Under the pieces are notes generated by a model, which was given only the letters and a program-made list of their open reading frames with translations, was not told the origin of the DNA and did no database searches. From assembly GCF_028737315.1 (NCBI RefSeq), contig NZ_JAQZAO010000002.1, positions 186,001-250,000 of the forward strand: a DNA stretch of 64,000 bases, read 5' to 3'. The DNA is from Actinomycetospora lemnae (GTDB lineage Bacteria; Actinomycetota; Actinomycetes; Mycobacteriales; Pseudonocardiaceae). Shown here piece by piece: positions 5,150 to 51,005 of the stretch; positions within the stretch are counted from its first letter, which is position 1; the number at the start of each line of letters is the position of its first letter. Position numbers and translations under genes: made by a program.

Positions 5150-6670
5150 TCACCGACGGCCCGCCAGCACCCCCCGCGGCCGGATCGAGCGCATCGGCTC
5201 GGGGCCGGCGCCCTCCTCGCGCAGCACGTCGTTGGCGGCGGTGACCGCGGTGACCGCCGCGCGCTCCATCAGCGCCGACGGCACCTCGCACGCCACCCAG
5301 TCCCCCGCCAGGCGCAGCCCGCGGGCGTCGGTGAGGACGCCGGGGCGCACGAGGTGGTAGCCGGGGTCGAAGCCCGGGGCGTTGGTGTAGCGGTGGGCCT
5401 CGACGTCGAGCACGCGCAGGTCCGCGGCCTCGGGCCACAGCGCCGTGAGCTCGTCGCGCATCGCGGCCACGAGGTCGTCGCGGGACGCGGCCGGCGGGCA
5501 GGCGTAGGAGTGCAGCTCGACGACCGACCCGCCGCGCTCGCGGGCCCAGCGCGCCGACCCGCCCTCGAGCCGGTGGAACAGGCTCACCGAGTCCAGCACG
5601 CGCTCGCGGGTGACGCCGGTGAACGGGGCGCGCGCCGGGTCGACGTCGCCCTCGCAGTACAGGCGCGCCACCACGTACGGCTCGCCGCTCGGCAGCGCGG
5701 CGATCCTCCGCGCGAGCCCGGGTGCGGCGGCGACGAGCTCCGGGGAGGCGGCCACCAGGTCCCGGGTGGCGGGCACGTCGGTCGCGACGACGAGGTGGCG
5801 GGCGTGCCGCGCGGGCTCGGACTCGACGTCCACCGCCCAGCCGCGCGCCCCGTCCGGGCGCAGCGACACCGCTCGCGCACCGGTCGTCACCGTCGCGCCG
5901 TGCTTCTCGAGCAGCCGGGTGAAGGGGTCCCAGAGCGTCGTGCGGTAGTCGTCGACCGGGGCGTCCATGCCCAGGCCCTCGGGGTTGCCGGTGAAGTAGA
6001 AGTGGCACATGGCCAGGAACTCGGCCGCCGAGTAGCGCTGCTCGACGTTGAAGAACGAGTGCGCGAAGACCTCGAAGAGCATCGCCCGGCCGCGGTCGGA
6101 GAAGCCGAGCGAGTCGAGCAGCTCGGCCGCGCTGCGGTGGTCGTGCTCGGCGTAGGTGCGGACCGGGTCGTAGTGCAGCATCGCCAGCGCCTCGTCGGCG
6201 TTGACGTGGCGCAGCTCGCCGAGCTTGAAGCTCGGGCTGCGCAGCACGAGCGCGACGAGGTTGAGCAGCGGCGTGCGCGGCAGGTCGGTGAAGTCCTCGG
6301 GCTCCCACCCGACCGAGGGCCGGCTGGCGATCGGGTAGCCGCCGACGTCGCGCAGGAAGCCGAGCTCCGGGTCGAGGCGGCGCAGGAGGTCGCGCAGCGT
6401 GTAGTACTGCCGGAAGAAGCCGTGGTAGCCGTGCTCGACGATCACCTCGCTGCCGTCGGCCAGCCGCCGGTCCCACGTGCCGAGACGGCCCCCGAGCTGC
6501 GGCGCCGCCTCGAGCAGCTCGACCCGCACGCCGCGCTCGGCGAGCACCAGGGCGGCGCTGACGCCCGCGACGCCGCCGCCGACCACCACCGCCGTGGCGT
6601 CCGGACCCACCCGGTGCGGGAGGTCGGGGCGGGCGGTGACGTGGCGGTGGGGACGGAACGGGCCGGGCAT
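5150..6670 (-). CDS. FAD-dependent oxidoreductase, CrtU/phytoene-desaturase-like
   Basis: A 506-residue flavoprotein. Near residue 28 it has the dinucleotide-binding VVVGGGVAGVSAALVLAERG, then an acidic residue ending the second strand (VELLEAA) and the GGR motif. The EHGYHGFFRQYYTLRDLLRR block, a LFEVFAHSFFN segment and the C-terminal GLRLAGDWVACEVPSALMERA, which caps the flavin, match the isorenieratene synthase (CrtU) branch of carotenoid desaturase-like enzymes. No Rieske domain is present. A role in carotenoid ring desaturation or a related polyene oxidation is inferred. Starts at 6679 or 6685 (GTG) are alternatives; none has a good ribosome site. Divergent from the aldehyde dehydrogenase gene. 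Confidence 0.75.
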   Translation of the reverse strand: MPGPFRPHRHVTARPDLPHRVGPDATAVVVGGGVAGVSAALVLAERGVRVELLEAAPQLGGRLGTWDRRLADGSEVIVEHGYHGFFRQYYTLRDLLRRLDPELGFLRDVGGYPIASRPSVGWEPEDFTDLPRTPLLNLVALVLRSPSFKLGELRHVNADEALAMLHYDPVRTYAEHDHRSAAELLDSLGFSDRGRAMLFEVFAHSFFNVEQRYSAAEFLAMCHFYFTGNPEGLGMDAPVDDYRTTLWDPFTRLLEKHGATVTTGARAVSLRPDGARGWAVDVESEPARHARHLVVATDVPATRDLVAASPELVAAAPGLARRIAALPSGEPYVVARLYCEGDVDPARAPFTGVTRERVLDSVSLFHRLEGGSARWARERGGSVVELHSYACPPAASRDDLVAAMRDELTALWPEAADLRVLDVEAHRYTNAPGFDPGYHLVRPGVLTDARGLRLAGDWVACEVPSALMERAAVTAVTAANDVLREEGAGPEPMRSIRPRGVLAGRR

Positions 6671-45004: not shown

Positions 45005-45892
45005 GTGGTCGAGCGGGAGCAGACCGGGGCCGACGGCGGGGCGGAGGGCGCCGGCCCCACCGCACGCCGCATCATCCTGGGCGCCCAGCTCCGCCGCCTG
45101 CGCGAGCGGGCCGGGGTGGCCCGGTCCGACGCCGCGTGGTCGATCCGCGGGTCGGACTCCAAGATGAGCCGCCTCGAGGCGGGCAAGGTCGGCTTCAAGG
45201 AGCGCGACGTCGCCGACCTGCTGACGATGTACGGCGTCACCGACGAGGGCGAGCGCGAGCTGCTCCTCGACATGACCCGCCGCAGCAACGAGCCCGGCTG
45301 GTGGCAGCCCTACGGCGACGTCCTGCCCGACTGGTTCGAGGACTACGTCGGCCTGGAGATGAGCGCCTCGCGCATCCAGACCTACGAGCTGCTGTTCGTC
45401 CCCGGCCTGCTGCAGACCGAGGACTACGCGCGCGCCGTCATCACCTCGGGCCACCCGGACCGGGCCACCTCCGACGACGAGCGCCGCCTCACCGTGCGCA
45501 TGCGCCGCCAGCAGATGCTCGGGCGCCGCGACGCGCCGACGTTGTGGGCGATCATCGACGAGTCGGTGCTGCACCGGCCGATCGGCGGCCACGGCACGCT
45601 CGTCGCCCAGGTCGAGCGCCTGCTCGAGCTCTCGGCGCTGCCGAACGTCGTCGTCCAGGTGCTGCCGTTCACGCTGAGCGGCTACGCCGCCGAGAGCACG
45701 TTCTCGATCCTGCGCTTCGCCGAGCCCGAGCTGCCCGACCTCGTCTACCAGGAGCACCTCACCGCCGCCGTCTACCTGGACAAGCGGCCCGAGGTGGAGG
45801 CCTACAGCCGTGTCATGGACCGTGTGGCCGTCGACGCGCTGACGCCCGACGAGACGCGCCAGTACCTCACGAAGCTCGTCGCCGAGCGCTGA
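45005..45892 (+). CDS. XRE-type regulator with DUF5753
   Basis: A 295-residue transcription factor. The helix-turn-helix lies at residues 24-80 (AQLRRLRERAGVARSDAAWSI, SDSKMSRLEAGKVGF). DUF5753 fills residues 105-290, with LLFVPGLLQTEDYARAVI, LPNVVVQVLPFT and YLDKRPEVEAYSRVMD. This is the WhiJ-like family of Streptomyces, whose members pair with small DUF397 partners that modulate them and act in development or antibiotic regulation. GTG at 45005 follows GGGGAG. A DUF397 gene lies 100 bases downstream behind a palindromic site. Confidence 0.92.
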   Translation: MVEREQTGADGGAEGAGPTARRIILGAQLRRLRERAGVARSDAAWSIRGSDSKMSRLEAGKVGFKERDVADLLTMYGVTDEGERELLLDMTRRSNEPGWWQPYGDVLPDWFEDYVGLEMSASRIQTYELLFVPGLLQTEDYARAVITSGHPDRATSDDERRLTVRMRRQQMLGRRDAPTLWAIIDESVLHRPIGGHGTLVAQVERLLELSALPNVVVQVLPFTLSGYAAESTFSILRFAEPELPDLVYQEHLTAAVYLDKRPEVEAYSRVMDRVAVDALTPDETRQYLTKLVAER

Positions 45893-45917
45893 GCCGGCCC
45901 GGCGACGGGCCCGGGCG

Positions 45918-45976
45918 TGCACGTGCAGATGATCCTTTCGCTTGCTAGTGTCGGTGCACTGTCGGATGCACGTGCA
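45918..45976. promoter_or_regulatory. Pair of TGCACGTGCA palindromes flanking a promoter
   Basis: Identical 10-bp palindromes at 45918-45927 and 45967-45976, 49 bp apart, with a GTGCAC half-site at 45954-45959 between them. A TTTCGCTTGCTAGTGT stretch between them may hold the promoter of the DUF397 gene. Good candidate operators for the DUF5753 regulator encoded immediately upstream. Confidence 0.5.
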
Positions 45977-45994
45977 CATGAGCGAGGCGGTCGC

Positions 45995-46252
45995 ATGGGC
46001 CAGGTGCCGAACGCACAGGACGGCCTTCCCGACGTGACGTGGCGCAAGAGCGCCCGCTCGGGCAAGCAGGGCAACTGCGTCGAGCTCGCGCCGGTGCCGG
46101 CGCGCCGGGTCGCGGTCCGCAATTCGCGGTTCCCCGAGGGTCCGGCCCTCCTGTTCTCCGTCGCGGAGATGAGCGCGTTCCTCGCTGACGTCAAGCGCGG
46201 CGCCTACGACGACCTCCTGGGTCCCGACGACGTCGCCGGCCTCGCGTCGTGA
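45995..46252 (+). CDS. DUF397 domain protein
   Basis: An 85-residue protein with the full DUF397 pattern: VTWRKSARSGKQGNCVELAP at the start, VAVRNSRFPEGPALLFS in the centre and AFLADVKRGAYD at the end. DUF397 proteins are small partners, sometimes described as antitoxin-like or co-regulators, of DUF5753 transcription factors. ATG at 45995 follows GAGGCGG; an upstream GTG at 45917 in the same frame would translate the palindromic promoter and is rejected. Its stop overlaps the start of a small cysteine-containing protein (GTGA), so the two are coupled. Confidence 0.9.
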   Translation: MGQVPNAQDGLPDVTWRKSARSGKQGNCVELAPVPARRVAVRNSRFPEGPALLFSVAEMSAFLADVKRGAYDDLLGPDDVAGLAS

Positions 46253-46728: not shown

Positions 46729-47886
46729 GTGACCACGGCGGCGACGCGCCCGGCCCCTGCAGGGCCTGCTCCCGGGGCCCCACCGGCCCCGGCCGCCGCT
46801 ACCCCGCACCCCGGCCTGCTCGAACCCCTGCGTGACCTGCCCGGCCTGGCCCAAGCGCTCGCCCTCGACGCCGACGCGCCCGAACGGCGCGTGATCGCGG
46901 AGATCGGCGCCGACGAGGGCACGGCGCCCACGGTGCTCACGTGGGGGCGCCGCGCGGCCGCCGTCGCGGCCGACCGGGCTCTCGCCCTCGATGACCTCAT
47001 CGTCACCACCGATGCGGCGTACCACCTGCTGCGTCGGGCCGGCAGCACCTGGATCTACCTGCGGGTGCGCCGCGCCGACGGCAACCTGGCCCTCGCCCGC
47101 CGGCGCCTCGCGGCCGTCACCGGCGCGCGCGCCCATCCAGCTCCCGCGGCGAGCTCCACCCCGGCCCGGCCGGTCGAGCTCCCCGCGGGCCGGTTGTCGA
47201 CCACGCCGACCCCGGCGTCGTCCACGGCCCCCTCCCCTGCGGGCCGGTGGAACACCCGGCCGGACCGCCGACCCACCGACGCGTCGACAGCGCCGTCGAC
47301 GACACCGGCGACCAGCGCTCCGGCGGCCTCGCCGAGCCGGGCTCCGGCCGCCCTGCCTGCGCCGTCCGCACCGGCCGCCGCGGCTCCGTCCGCACCGGCA
47401 CCGGCACCGGCTCCGTCGGCACCGGCTCCGTCGGCACCGGTTCCGTCGGCTCCGTCGCCTCCGTCGGCACCGTCGGCTCCGTCGGCACCGGCAGCGGCTC
47501 CGTCCGCACCGGCAGCGGCTCCGTCCGCACCGGCAGCGGCTCCGTCCGCACCCGCGGCGCTGTTCGCTCCGGCGACGGCACCGTCGACCCCGGCCCCACC
47601 GGCCGCCGTGGCCCTGCCGACCCCCCGCCGGCCCCCGGGCGCGTCGCTGCCGGCCGCCGCCCGGAACCCGGCCCCCGCCGCCACCGAGGGCGACCGGGGC
47701 CCGTCCCCGCCGCGGGACTCGGCCGGTGTGCTCGGCCAGCGCTGGCGCACCGACCCCGAGACGTTGCGGCGGGTCCTCGCCGGCCTGCTCCGCCTGGGCC
47801 GTGCGCCCCAGGCAGCGCTCGCCGGCACCACCCCCGAACCGACCACCCGCTCCCCCGGAGCGACCCCGACACGGAGGAATCCATGA
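46729..47886 (+). CDS. Roadblock/LC7-like protein with long Pro-Ala linker
   Basis: A 385-residue protein in three parts. Residues about 30-135 resemble the following gene's product: LDDLIVTTDAAYHLLRR and the NLALARRRLAAVTG helix correspond to its ITLDTQYHLIRP and NLAMARRDLKI. Residues 135-320 are a Pro/Ala/Ser linker with repeated PSAPAA units. The C-terminus (VLGQRWRTDPETLRRVLAGL) is a predicted helix pair. No catalytic or GTPase motif is seen. GTG at 46729 follows AGAGGA. Its TGA overlaps the next ATG. Probably a scaffold for protein-protein contacts; function unknown. Confidence 0.65.
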   Translation: MTTAATRPAPAGPAPGAPPAPAAATPHPGLLEPLRDLPGLAQALALDADAPERRVIAEIGADEGTAPTVLTWGRRAAAVAADRALALDDLIVTTDAAYHLLRRAGSTWIYLRVRRADGNLALARRRLAAVTGARAHPAPAASSTPARPVELPAGRLSTTPTPASSTAPSPAGRWNTRPDRRPTDASTAPSTTPATSAPAASPSRAPAALPAPSAPAAAAPSAPAPAPAPSAPAPSAPVPSAPSPPSAPSAPSAPAAAPSAPAAAPSAPAAAPSAPAALFAPATAPSTPAPPAAVALPTPRRPPGASLPAAARNPAPAATEGDRGPSPPRDSAGVLGQRWRTDPETLRRVLAGLLRLGRAPQAALAGTTPEPTTRSPGATPTRRNP

Positions 47887-48323
47887 GTGACATCGAGTAC
47901 GCCCTCAACGCGGCCGCCAACATCAAGGGCGCGTTCGCCGTGGCCATCGTCGACTACGACAGCGGCATGACCCTCGGCTCGCGGGGCGGCAGCGCGGAGT
48001 TCGACCTCGACGTCGCCGCGCCCGGCAACAGCGAGGTCGTCCGCGCCAAGTTCGACGTCATGCAGAAGCTGGGCCTGCGCGAGACGATCGAGGACATCCT
48101 CATCACCCTCGACACGCAGTACCACCTGATCCGGCCGATCTACGGCAACCCGGACGACAAGATGTTCTTCTACCTGGTGCTCAACCGCCAGCAGGCGAAC
48201 CTCGCGATGGCCCGCCGGGACCTGAAGATCATCGGTCAGCGCTTCTACCTCGACGACCCGTCGTCGGCGGCGGCCGTCCCGCAGCAGGACCAGGGCTACT
48301 ACCAGCAGGTCGGGCGGCGCTGA
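47883..48323 (+). CDS. Roadblock/LC7-like protein
   Basis: A 146-residue protein of the actinobacterial roadblock-like type. It opens with DIEYALNAAANIKGAFAVAI and VDYDSGMTLGSRGG, continues with NSEVVRAKFDVMQKLGLRET, then EDILITLDTQYHLIRPIYG and NLAMARRDLKIIGQRF. This is a single alpha-beta roadblock fold, which usually dimerises and binds small GTPases or kinases. The last 25 residues are Gln/Tyr-rich and flexible. Its start overlaps the stop of the upstream paralogue by four bases. No MglA-like GTPase gene is in the window. Confidence 0.8.
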   Translation: MSDIEYALNAAANIKGAFAVAIVDYDSGMTLGSRGGSAEFDLDVAAPGNSEVVRAKFDVMQKLGLRETIEDILITLDTQYHLIRPIYGNPDDKMFFYLVLNRQQANLAMARRDLKIIGQRFYLDDPSSAAAVPQQDQGYYQQVGRR

Positions 48324-48351
48324 CGACGGTCGACGGACGGGAGCGGCGAGG

Positions 48352-49062
48352 GTGGGGCGACACCGCCACCTGACGTGCGTGCGGTCGGACGGGCTGTCGG
48401 CGGTGCTCCGCCCGCTGCTCGACGACCGCCGCATCGTCGCCGCCACCCTCGTCGACGCCGACAGCGGCCTGGTCCTCGACGGCTGTGTCGACGACCCCGG
48501 CGAGCACCCCGCGCTCGCCGACCTCGAGCTGCTGGGGGCGGCCCACGCCGACATGGTGCGGGCCGCCCTCGCGATCACCCCGACGCTCACGGAGCTGTCC
48601 GTGAGCACCGACGACGGCCACCACCACCTGCTCCACGCCGTGCCCGACCCGCACGGAGAGCGGCTGGTGGTGGCCGTCGTCGTCCGCGGCGCCCCCCGCC
48701 ACGTCGCCAAGGCCCGCCTGCGGCTGCGCACGGTGTCGGTGGAGGCGCTGACCGCCGGGCCGACGCTCCAGCGACGTCCGGTGAACGGCAGCTGGGTGGT
48801 CGAGGCGCCCGGCCCCGACGGCGCCGCCGCCACGGACGACCCCCAGGACCACCCCCACAACGGATCCCCCGACCGAGCCGACGGCCCACGACCGTCGGCC
48901 CCGGCGCCGTCGCTCGCCCCCCTGTCGGCGATGTCGCCCCGGAGCCCGACGCTGCCGTCCGGCCCGGGCGCGACCCCTCCGCCACCGACGGTCTCGTCGG
49001 TCGCGTCGTCGGCCGACGGCGTCGGTCAGCGCTCTCCGGGCCGGACGAGCCCGCTCTCGTAG
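48352..49062 (+). CDS. Roadblock-like protein with disordered tail
   Basis: A 236-residue protein, the third paralogue. LDDRRIVAATLVDADSGLVLDG is equivalent to the VDYDSGMTLG strand of its neighbour, and LTELSVSTDDGHHHLLHAVPDP to the ILITLDTQYHLI strand. VAKARLRLRTVSVEAL corresponds to the last helix. Residues 150-236 are Pro/Ser-rich and disordered. GTG at 48352 follows GGAGCGGCGAGG, 28 bases after the previous stop. Its final 37 bases overlap the 3' end of the convergent response-regulator gene. Confidence 0.65.
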   Translation: MGRHRHLTCVRSDGLSAVLRPLLDDRRIVAATLVDADSGLVLDGCVDDPGEHPALADLELLGAAHADMVRAALAITPTLTELSVSTDDGHHHLLHAVPDPHGERLVVAVVVRGAPRHVAKARLRLRTVSVEALTAGPTLQRRPVNGSWVVEAPGPDGAAATDDPQDHPHNGSPDRADGPRPSAPAPSLAPLSAMSPRSPTLPSGPGATPPPPTVSSVASSADGVGQRSPGRTSPLS

Positions 49063-49688
49063 GCCGCGACCACGAGCTGCGCCCGGTCGCGGGCGCCCAG
49101 CTTGGCGAGGAGGCGCCCGACGTAGGTCCGGGCCGTGTCCGGGCTGAGGTACAGCGCTGCGCCGATCTCGGCGTTGGACAGGCCCGCGCCGACGTGGGCG
49201 AGGACCTCGCGCTCCCGCGGCGTGAGCCCGGCCAGCCGGCCCGGGTCCACGGCGGGGCGGTCGGCCACCGCGGCCAGCACGCGACGGGTGACCGCCGGCG
49301 AGAGCAGGGCGTCGCCCCGCGCGACCGTGCGCACCGCCTCGCGGAGGGCGTCGGGAGCGGTGTCCTTGAGCAGGAACCCGGCGGCGCCCGCCCGGATCGC
49401 CTCGAAGAGGTACTCGTCGTCGTCGAACGTCGTCAGCATGACCACCCGGACGTCGGCGAGGACCGGGTCCGCCACGATCTGGCGAGCGGACCGGAGCCCG
49501 TCGGTGCCCGGCATCCGCACGTCCATGAGGACGACGTCCGGGCGCACCGTCCGGACGACGGCGAGGCCGGCCGCCCCGTCCGCGGCCTCCCCGGCCACGT
49601 GGATGTCCGGCGCCCGCTCCAGGAGCGCGCGCAGGCCCTCCCGCACGAGGTGCTGGTCGTCGACGATCACCACCGCGACGGTGCTCAC
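49026..49688 (-). CDS. NarL/LuxR-type response regulator
   Basis: A 220-residue response regulator. The receiver has acidic residues Asp10-Asp11, phosphoacceptor Asp56 in VVLMDVRMPG, and the conserved Lys in GFLLKDTAP. The LuxR/NarL HTH lies at about residues 155-205 (LTPREREVLAHVGAGLSNAEI, SPDTARTYVGRLLAKLGARD). It is the partner of the histidine kinase encoded immediately upstream; the kinase stop overlaps this GTG start by four bases. Its targets are unknown; the DUF1772 gene divergent from the kinase is one guess. Confidence 0.93.
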   Translation of the reverse strand: MSTVAVVIVDDQHLVREGLRALLERAPDIHVAGEAADGAAGLAVVRTVRPDVVLMDVRMPGTDGLRSARQIVADPVLADVRVVMLTTFDDDEYLFEAIRAGAAGFLLKDTAPDALREAVRTVARGDALLSPAVTRRVLAAVADRPAVDPGRLAGLTPREREVLAHVGAGLSNAEIGAALYLSPDTARTYVGRLLAKLGARDRAQLVVAAYESGLVRPGER

Positions 49689-50830
49689 GCCGCTCCCCCG
49701 CCGAGGGGGAGGCGGGCGTGCACGCGGTAGCCGCCGTCGACGCCGGGGCCGGCCGCGACCTCACCGCCGAGCAGCTCGACGCGTTCGGCCATGCCCCGCA
49801 GCCCGTGGCCGGCGTCCCCGGCGTGTCCCGGCGGGCCACCGCGCCCGTCGTCGGTGATCAGCAGGGTGAGGTCCGCCGCTCCGACGTCCACCCGGACCAC
49901 GGCGCGCGTCGCGTCGGCGTGGCGCAGGGCGTTGGTCAGCGCCTCCTGCACGACGCGGTAGGCGGTGGTGCCGGCGACCACGGGCAGGGCGTCCACCTCG
50001 CCCGCCACCCGCAGGTCGACCGGGAGCCCGCCGTCCCGCACCCGCTCCGCCAGCGCGGGGAGCTGGTCGATCCCCGGTGCCGGCTCCCGGCCGGCCTCGG
50101 CGCGGAGGGTGCCCAGCGTCGCGCGCAGCTCGGTCATGGCGCCGCCGCTCGCCGCCCGGATGGCGTCGAGGGACGCGCCCACCTCGGCGTACGCCCGGTC
50201 CGCGAGGGCCTCCTGCGCCACCGCCGACCGCATCGTCACGATCGACATCGTGTGGCCCAGGGTGTCGTGCAGCTCCCGGGCGATGCGGACACGCTCGGCG
50301 TCGACCTGGCGCGCCGCGTCGCGCCGGCGCTCCTCGTCCGCGGCCGCGGCCCGCCGGGCGAACTCCGCCTGCGCCACGCGGCGGCTGCGGACGGCGTCGC
50401 CGAGCGCGATCACCGCCGTCATGAGGGCCGCGTCGGTCACCAGGCCGAACGTGAGCAGGACGGTGAGGTCGTCGCCCTCGAGGAGGCGGACGCCCACCGA
50501 CACCGCGAGCAGTCCCGCACCGACCACCGCGGCGGCGAGCACCCGCCCGCGCTCGGCGGCGAGGTAGAGCACCGGCGCCATCGGCGCGGCGAGGCCGACC
50601 GCGGGGAGGTCGAGCGCGTAATACAGGACGAGGACCGCCGCGGTCGCGAGGAGGGCCGGCAGGGGCCACCGCCCGGCGGCGAGCACCAGGGCCGCGACCA
50701 CCAGCGCGCACCCGGCCGTGAGGACGGCCCGGGCGGGCGAGCCGGGGTCGGTGAGCAGCGCGACCGCGACGAGGCCCAGGACCGCGACGGCGAGCGCCAC
50801 CTCGAGGCGGCGGGGACGGGCGGGCTCCAC
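49685..50830 (-). CDS. Sensor histidine kinase (HisKA_3 type)
   Basis: A 381-residue membrane kinase. Four to five helices occupy residues 10-140 without an obvious extracytoplasmic sensor domain. A coiled segment leads to the HisKA_3 dimerisation box ERVRIARELHDTLGHTMSIV containing the phosphorylated His. The HATPase_c domain has an N-box in VVQEALTNALRHADA and G-boxes DDGRGGPPG and GHGLRGMAERV. It phosphorylates the adjacent NarL-type regulator. GTG at 50830 is the preferred start; a GTG at 50866 would add 12 residues. The stimulus cannot be read from the sequence, perhaps membrane stress. Confidence 0.9.
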   Translation of the reverse strand: MEPARPRRLEVALAVAVLGLVAVALLTDPGSPARAVLTAGCALVVAALVLAAGRWPLPALLATAAVLVLYYALDLPAVGLAAPMAPVLYLAAERGRVLAAAVVGAGLLAVSVGVRLLEGDDLTVLLTFGLVTDAALMTAVIALGDAVRSRRVAQAEFARRAAAADEERRRDAARQVDAERVRIARELHDTLGHTMSIVTMRSAVAQEALADRAYAEVGASLDAIRAASGGAMTELRATLGTLRAEAGREPAPGIDQLPALAERVRDGGLPVDLRVAGEVDALPVVAGTTAYRVVQEALTNALRHADATRAVVRVDVGAADLTLLITDDGRGGPPGHAGDAGHGLRGMAERVELLGGEVAAGPGVDGGYRVHARLPLGGGAA

Positions 50831-51005
50831 CCTGCCGCAGCGTAGGCCCGGTCCCCGCGCCCGCACCGTCGTCGGGAGGCGTCACTCGCCGCGCCGGTCG
50901 TACGTCGAGGAGCGACACCGGCGCACGCCACCGCCCGGACGCCCCACCGCCGCGGCGTCCCTAGCGTCGTCGAGCGCCCGCACCGCTCGACCGAGGAGGC
51001 TCCGC

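Follow-up and report, generated by a model that had tools for sequence, protein, structure and literature searches.

Three tandem roadblock-like genes without a neighbouring GTPase in Actinomycetospora lemnae, and their wider relatives

The DNA examined here is a 64,000-nucleotide stretch of the Actinomycetospora lemnae genome (RefSeq assembly GCF_028737315.1, contig NZ_JAQZAO010000002.1, positions 186,001 to 250,000; hereafter the window), in which three consecutive open reading frames (ORF1–ORF3; Table 1) form a putative operon of three diverged roadblock-like paralogues. ORF1 shares its last four bases with the start of ORF2 (ATGA, 47883–47886), GGAGG lies immediately 5' of the ORF2 start codon, and ORF3 starts 28 bp past ORF2. 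Re-derivation of the ORF coordinates returned the same gene positions and the same overlap of the first two genes as an earlier sequence-only reading, which had described the locus as an operon of three diverged roadblock-like proteins with no GTPase.

Table 1. Features of the trio locus, in window coordinates
Feature	Position	Strand	Description
ORF1	46729–47886	+	GTG start, 385 aa; frame open from 46696; N-terminal roadblock-fold domain (predicted), ~200-residue Pro/Ala/Ser linker, C-terminal helix; A-like paralogue
ORF1 roadblock domain	46798–47139	+	Part with predicted 3D model
ORF1 linker, degenerate LPxR-like stretch	47614–47661	+	LPTPRRPPGASLPAAA; p=0.094 against position-specific scoring matrix (PSSM), not significant in the window protein
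ORF1 C-terminal helix-like stretch	47746–47796	+	RTDPETLRRVLAGLLRL; likeness to end of DUF4388/winged helix-turn-helix (B) proteins; PSSM p=0.0085
ORF2	47883–48323	+	ATG start, 146 aa; bare roadblock-fold protein (predicted), D family, conserved core
ORF3	48352–49062	+	GTG start, 236 aa; third roadblock-like paralogue, disordered-looking Pro/Ser tail

Roadblock proteins are usually read as partners of GTPases or motors. The predicted model of ORF2 has the roadblock fold (alpha-beta-beta-alpha-beta-beta-beta-alpha) and superposes on solved roadblock structures, as does the predicted model of the ORF1 domain, while ORF3 was placed in the roadblock-like group via profile comparison alone. In profile-profile comparisons with hhalign, the families of ORF1 and ORF3 matched the D family (defined from ORF2, see below) at 98.7% probability (E 1.6e-16) and 97.5% (E 6.3e-12), respectively, and the ORF3 family matched the ORF1 family at 96.9% (E 1.6e-10). 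Because of these probabilities and E-values, we judge the likeness among the three proteins to be true paralogy, not chance; the three genes are predicted to encode paralogous roadblock-fold proteins, ORF3 by profile only. The claim of three diverged roadblock-like proteins is thereby borne out, and the unrelated folds for the first and third proteins that the sequence-only reading had named as speaking against it were not found.

Sequence-family searches were silent on the trio. None of the three proteins matched PF03259 (Robl_LC7), a DNA-binding domain or any other Pfam model over the curated cut-off (a single weak line, to a reovirus protein at E 0.041, fell below it), and none matched NCBIfam; hhalign comparison of D with classic roadblocks was not significant, and in a PDB sequence search the sole hits were a ribosomal protein (E 0.74) and a dynein roadblock chain (E 0.8). 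The possibility that these are not roadblock proteins at all, considered in view of the silence of Pfam and NCBIfam, was ruled out because the predicted structures of ORF2 and the ORF1 domain show the roadblock fold. A role in anti-phage defence was dropped, as PADLOC matched neither the three trio proteins nor four proteins of related operons.

Adjacency of the homologues, which the sequence-only reading had left to a neighbourhood search, is well kept: by profile search, 21 of 22 Actinomycetospora- or Pseudonocardia-type loci carry homologues of all three ORFs as neighbours, and in the exception (L045) the contig begins 53 bases before ORF2. The ortholog hidden Markov models for ORF1 and ORF3 have the window protein in each seed and also contain many of the orthologues found; against them window ORF1 scores 138 bits, window ORF3 183 bits, and the ORF1 homologue of L098 a weak 32 bits. 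Plain tblastn with window ORF1 gave no match in seven Pseudonocardia-type loci (L047–L052 and L098), and with window ORF3 none in L052 and L098. Most of thirteen tested flanking window genes are present in seven of the 22 loci; the other fifteen have no window flank gene clearly in common (distant 36–39% matches in five; some are cut by the contig). The trio is thus kept together in two genera despite differing surroundings. The Pseudonocardia contigs of L047–L050 end at most ~1.2 kb past ORF2, within the ORF3 region, perhaps where a repetitive ORF3 tail breaks assemblies.

Simple dN/dS estimates between the window and congeners were 0.08–0.23 for ORF2 (five pairs), 0.23–0.34 for the ORF3 domain (four pairs), 0.30–0.48 for the ORF1 domain (three pairs) and 0.38–0.65 for the ORF1 linker (two pairs). 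Constraint is thus strongest on ORF2, followed by the ORF3 domain and then ORF1, and because of these values all three look like real genes. Identities to one congener locus (L034) are 97% for ORF2, 72% for ORF3 and 56% for ORF1, and the ORF2 copies of Actinomycetospora straminea and of a genome from the same genus each share 99% identity with the window protein.

ORF2 served to define what we term the D family, whose members match the D profile A1 over their full length and carry the conserved stretches IEDILITL and NLAMAR; ORF2, itself in the alignment, scores 185 bits. Sampling the family of the window gave D homologues in 97 of 297 genomes, and sampling across the phylum in 18 of 296 (own genome included in both); they also occur in 28 plasmid-collection records, including Streptomyces, Deinococcus, Hymenobacter, Comamonas, Acinetobacter and Agarilytica, and, as D-like stretches, in six IMG/VR contigs. 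When 31 diverse members were searched against Pfam at E 0.01, none matched any family, PF03259 included. D is a Pfam-dark, slowly evolving family across several phyla (Actinomycetota, Deinococcus, Hymenobacter, Proteobacteria) and IMG/VR contigs. A phage protein family was considered and dropped, as PHROGs gave no family for six proteins including D proteins and an annotated phage collection gave no match to two queries, though those six IMG/VR contigs carry D-like stretches. Solo D genes lie near 5940–6350 in the phage-like contigs L108, L111 and L112, with HNH- or terminase-like neighbours noted by eye in L108 and L111 only, and tandem D or D-like pairs lie on Comamonas and Hymenobacter plasmids (L102:11222–12360, L107:9469–10309, L124:5473–6327).

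Related operons were surveyed in actinobacteria other than the trio clade, at 26 D loci with wide flanks (7 plasmid records and 19 others, L098 being left out), a Streptomyces-heavy and non-random set; D loci of other genomes taken without wide flanks, such as G045, G146, G167, G210, G259 and G269, stand outside the count. We denote as A a D-like paralogue, as B a protein with DUF4388-like and winged-helix-like regions, often below the Pfam cut-off, and as C a PF03259 roadblock. The order A-B-C-D was found at 12 of the 26 loci, A-B-C divergent from D at one (L105), D with C but without A at four (L093, L096 (with B), L097 and L099), and D without adjacent A, B or C at nine. With this operon of Streptomyces-like and other actinomycetes the trio shares D (43–54% identity to ORF2, six rows) and an A-like first gene, but it lacks B and C and has ORF3 instead; at the window locus ORF1 and ORF2 overlap and nothing matches PF03259. 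In a quick tree with long branches (102 rows, 123 columns; ten loci left out, as were rows below 40 bits except in three loci), all 60 D rows fell on one side (SH-like approximate likelihood-ratio support 97) and A, ORF1 and ORF3 on the other, with support of 81 for grouping ORF1 with some A rows. The tree fits, though weakly, a reading of ORF1 as an A that has diverged and of ORF3 as one more paralogue on that side.

Some relatives of the trio do have a GTPase. In G285, D, a PF03029 GTPase (Walker A motif seen by eye) and a PF03259 roadblock follow one another closely on one strand, and Agarilytica plasmid pSU2 (L115:7001–9072) has D followed by genes for a BLUF photoreceptor, a Ras/MglA-like GTPase and a PF03259 roadblock; the set might act as a roadblock/GTPase switch driven by blue light. 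Across 20 D loci of 13 genomes, a PF03029 match within 5 kb of D was found at three, in G285, G232 and G063; in the latter two (L083, L085) a solo D gene precedes a same-strand PF03259/PF03029 pair by ~4 kb. The remaining 17 had none among the candidates scored (104 in most genomes), so that a GTPase may have been missed.

The absence of a GTPase beside the trio, asserted by the sequence-only reading, was confirmed: PF03029 has no match in the window (C21:186001–250000; other GTPase families were not searched over its whole length), and none of nine flanking window proteins matched a GTPase family. Over the own genome, PF03029 matched at C10:82409, at C21:449944 and weakly at C29; the two strong matches each adjoin a PF03259 gene, away from the trio, and these two pairs could act in trans with it.

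Set against known systems, the trio differs from MglB/MglC of Myxococcus and Thermus in having no MglA-type GTPase beside it (none within a few genes, as judged by PF03029 and the nine flanking proteins), no PF03259 match and three tandem paralogues; identity in the 50 Foldseek matches listed is 10–19%. Like the conservons (CvnA-D; AGPS), it places a roadblock-fold protein in an actinomycete operon, and some ORF1 orthologues may have a CvnA-like LPxR motif; unlike them, it lacks the kinase of the unit, DUF742 and a GTPase gene, so that the kinase, roadblock, DUF742 and GTPase genes do not occur in order here, and the genome's own PF03259-PF03029 pairs lie elsewhere. A histidine kinase/response regulator pair at 49026–50866 is convergent to the trio; a link between the two was ruled out because the pair was found at only one of the 22 loci (L053; four, L047–L050, are cut on that side), the window response regulator matching a further locus (L041) at a paralogue-level 37%. 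Wuichet and Sogaard-Andersen (PMC4316618) describe an exclusively orphan actinobacterial MglB clade, and roadblocks without a GTPase neighbour were thus already known as orphans; none of the orphan MglB proteins had been characterised as of 2014 according to that paper. In that clade as in the trio, roadblocks of actinobacteria have neither a GTPase nor a conservon next to them; the trio proteins differ in not matching the roadblock sequence model, and it may be the C genes found in this analysis that correspond to the clade. For the tandem trio, the D family and its four-gene relative, we found no description in the literature searched, which is no proof of absence from print.

Based on these results, we suggest, at about an even chance of being right, that the trio is a heteromeric roadblock adaptor without a GTPase of its own, the GTPase having been lost or being supplied in trans. 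ORF2 would be the slowly evolving core subunit, joined by ORF1 and ORF3 as partners that share its fold and evolve faster. As a rule roadblock domains form dimers, which the titles of the PDB matches also show, and ORF2 is therefore likely to pair with a second copy of itself as well as with ORF1, ORF3 or both. The module is related to the operons in which D accompanies a classic roadblock and an MglA-like GTPase; the trio lineage probably lost this GTPase, and would either do without one or borrow it from the two PF03259-PF03029 loci. The ORF1 C-terminal helix, on its ~200-residue flexible linker, may serve as a docking arm for another roadblock surface, by analogy with RomR, whose C-terminal helix binds the roadblock protein MglC with a KD of 2.6 nM (PMC12719032). 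This helix-like stretch appears to resemble the end of the B proteins: a PSSM of eight B tails, scored against shuffled linkers, gave p<0.01 in 12 of 21 ORF1 linkers, the window among them, and in none of 18 ORF3 tails. The eight tails were taken from 10 of the 14 B proteins (the other four being L118 and L125, which have close variants of the tail, and L096 and L105, which have none), and the sets scored leave out L045 for ORF1 and L047–L050, cut by contig ends, for ORF3. Assembly, docking, direction of loss and signalling output are what we infer for this adaptor. A more tentative extension, which we consider doubtful, is a bacterial platform resembling Ragulator, in which three specialised roadblock subunits would form an obligate complex that signals without a GTPase; it would end a series in which a DUF4388/winged-helix protein first took the place of the GTPase of D, the classic roadblock was lost next, and ORF1 took over the docking tail. 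Ragulator/LAMTOR itself is eukaryotic and serves Rag GTPases, and any such trio assembly is conjecture.

Among the alternatives to the adaptor, the one that fares best, although still improbable in our estimate, is that the trio plugs into conservon (CvnA-D) pathways and thereby uses a GTPase in trans, ORF1 imitating the kinase tail (LPxR and terminal helix) to engage CvnB, CvnC or CvnD. PMC4316618 describes an LPxR motif in CvnA kinases. We built an LPxR PSSM from 17 tails chosen by eye at 19 of 24 loci, where ORFs next to PF03259 genes were presumed to encode CvnA-type kinases (two duplicates; L127, L136, L147, L148 and L149 gave no tail that was used). It scored p<0.01 in six of 20 ORF1 linkers, all from one Actinomycetospora group, with a layout similar to that of the kinase tails (motif, ~30-residue spacer, terminal helix). 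The two PF03259-PF03029 pairs of the own genome fit such a role, the ORF beside one of them (L126) bears the tail LPRRRPRAQLVPG, and the D genes upstream of a pair in G232 and G063 point the same way. However, the motif is degenerate in the window (Table 1), 14 of the 20 linkers fall short of p<0.01, no LPxR tail was found at the own genome's other pair (L127) or at four of the other 23 loci examined, and the 17 D loci without a nearby PF03029 match likewise count against it. The motif found elsewhere, in one of 21 ORF3 and one of 13 B proteins, gave no support (these sets leave out two loci for ORF1, one for ORF3 and L096 for B).

We consider it somewhat less probable still that the roadblock platform is a GTPase-independent regulator acting directly on a partner, DNA-binding or other, a reading suggested by the DUF4388-like and winged-helix-like regions of the B protein. 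One B protein has a weak DUF742-like match (E 0.027, below the cut-off), and three settings join D to DUF4388 by linkage or fusion; among them, a contig from viral metagenomes (L109:5476–6363) encodes DUF4388 fused to the D domain (PF14332, 1.3e-16), and a D gene of Deinococcus QL22, split over two frames, follows a DUF4388 gene. Yet a DUF4388 search at E 0.5 found no match in G000, G021 and 12 of 14 congeners and only insignificant ones in congeners G006 and G007 (0.28 and 0.05), and the trio lacks a Pfam DNA-binding domain. That the genes are a relic, diverging duplicates of redundant or fading function, is very improbable: ORF1 and ORF3 diverge fast and their linkers are variable, but ORF2 is under strong purifying selection and the three genes have stayed together in two genera amid different surroundings.

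Elsewhere in the window, an XRE/DUF5753 regulator and DUF397 pair (45005–46252) lies upstream of the trio and was found at only seven of the 22 loci, and the segment 52091–56912, with EgtD-like methyltransferase (PF10017) and glutamine amidotransferase genes, probably belongs to an ergothioneine cluster, with EgtB and EgtA as guesses based on position.

Taken as a whole, the sequence-only reading stands as to paralogues, putative operon, lack of a neighbouring GTPase and kept adjacency; its interpretation is partly supported, the hetero-oligomeric scaffold that it suggested being a putative assembly, and it was incomplete as to the invisibility to Pfam, the spread of D, the GTPase-bearing relatives, the four-gene operons with a DUF4388/winged-helix protein and the pairs that could act in trans. 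A conserved trio without a neighbouring GTPase, whose core family is found in several phyla as well as on plasmids and in IMG/VR contigs although Pfam has no model for it, makes the role of orphan roadblocks testable, with the D-GTPase-roadblock and D-BLUF-GTPase-roadblock operons as natural controls. The trio can thus be used to test whether a scaffold that elsewhere partners a Ras-like switch has here lost that switch or outsourced it.
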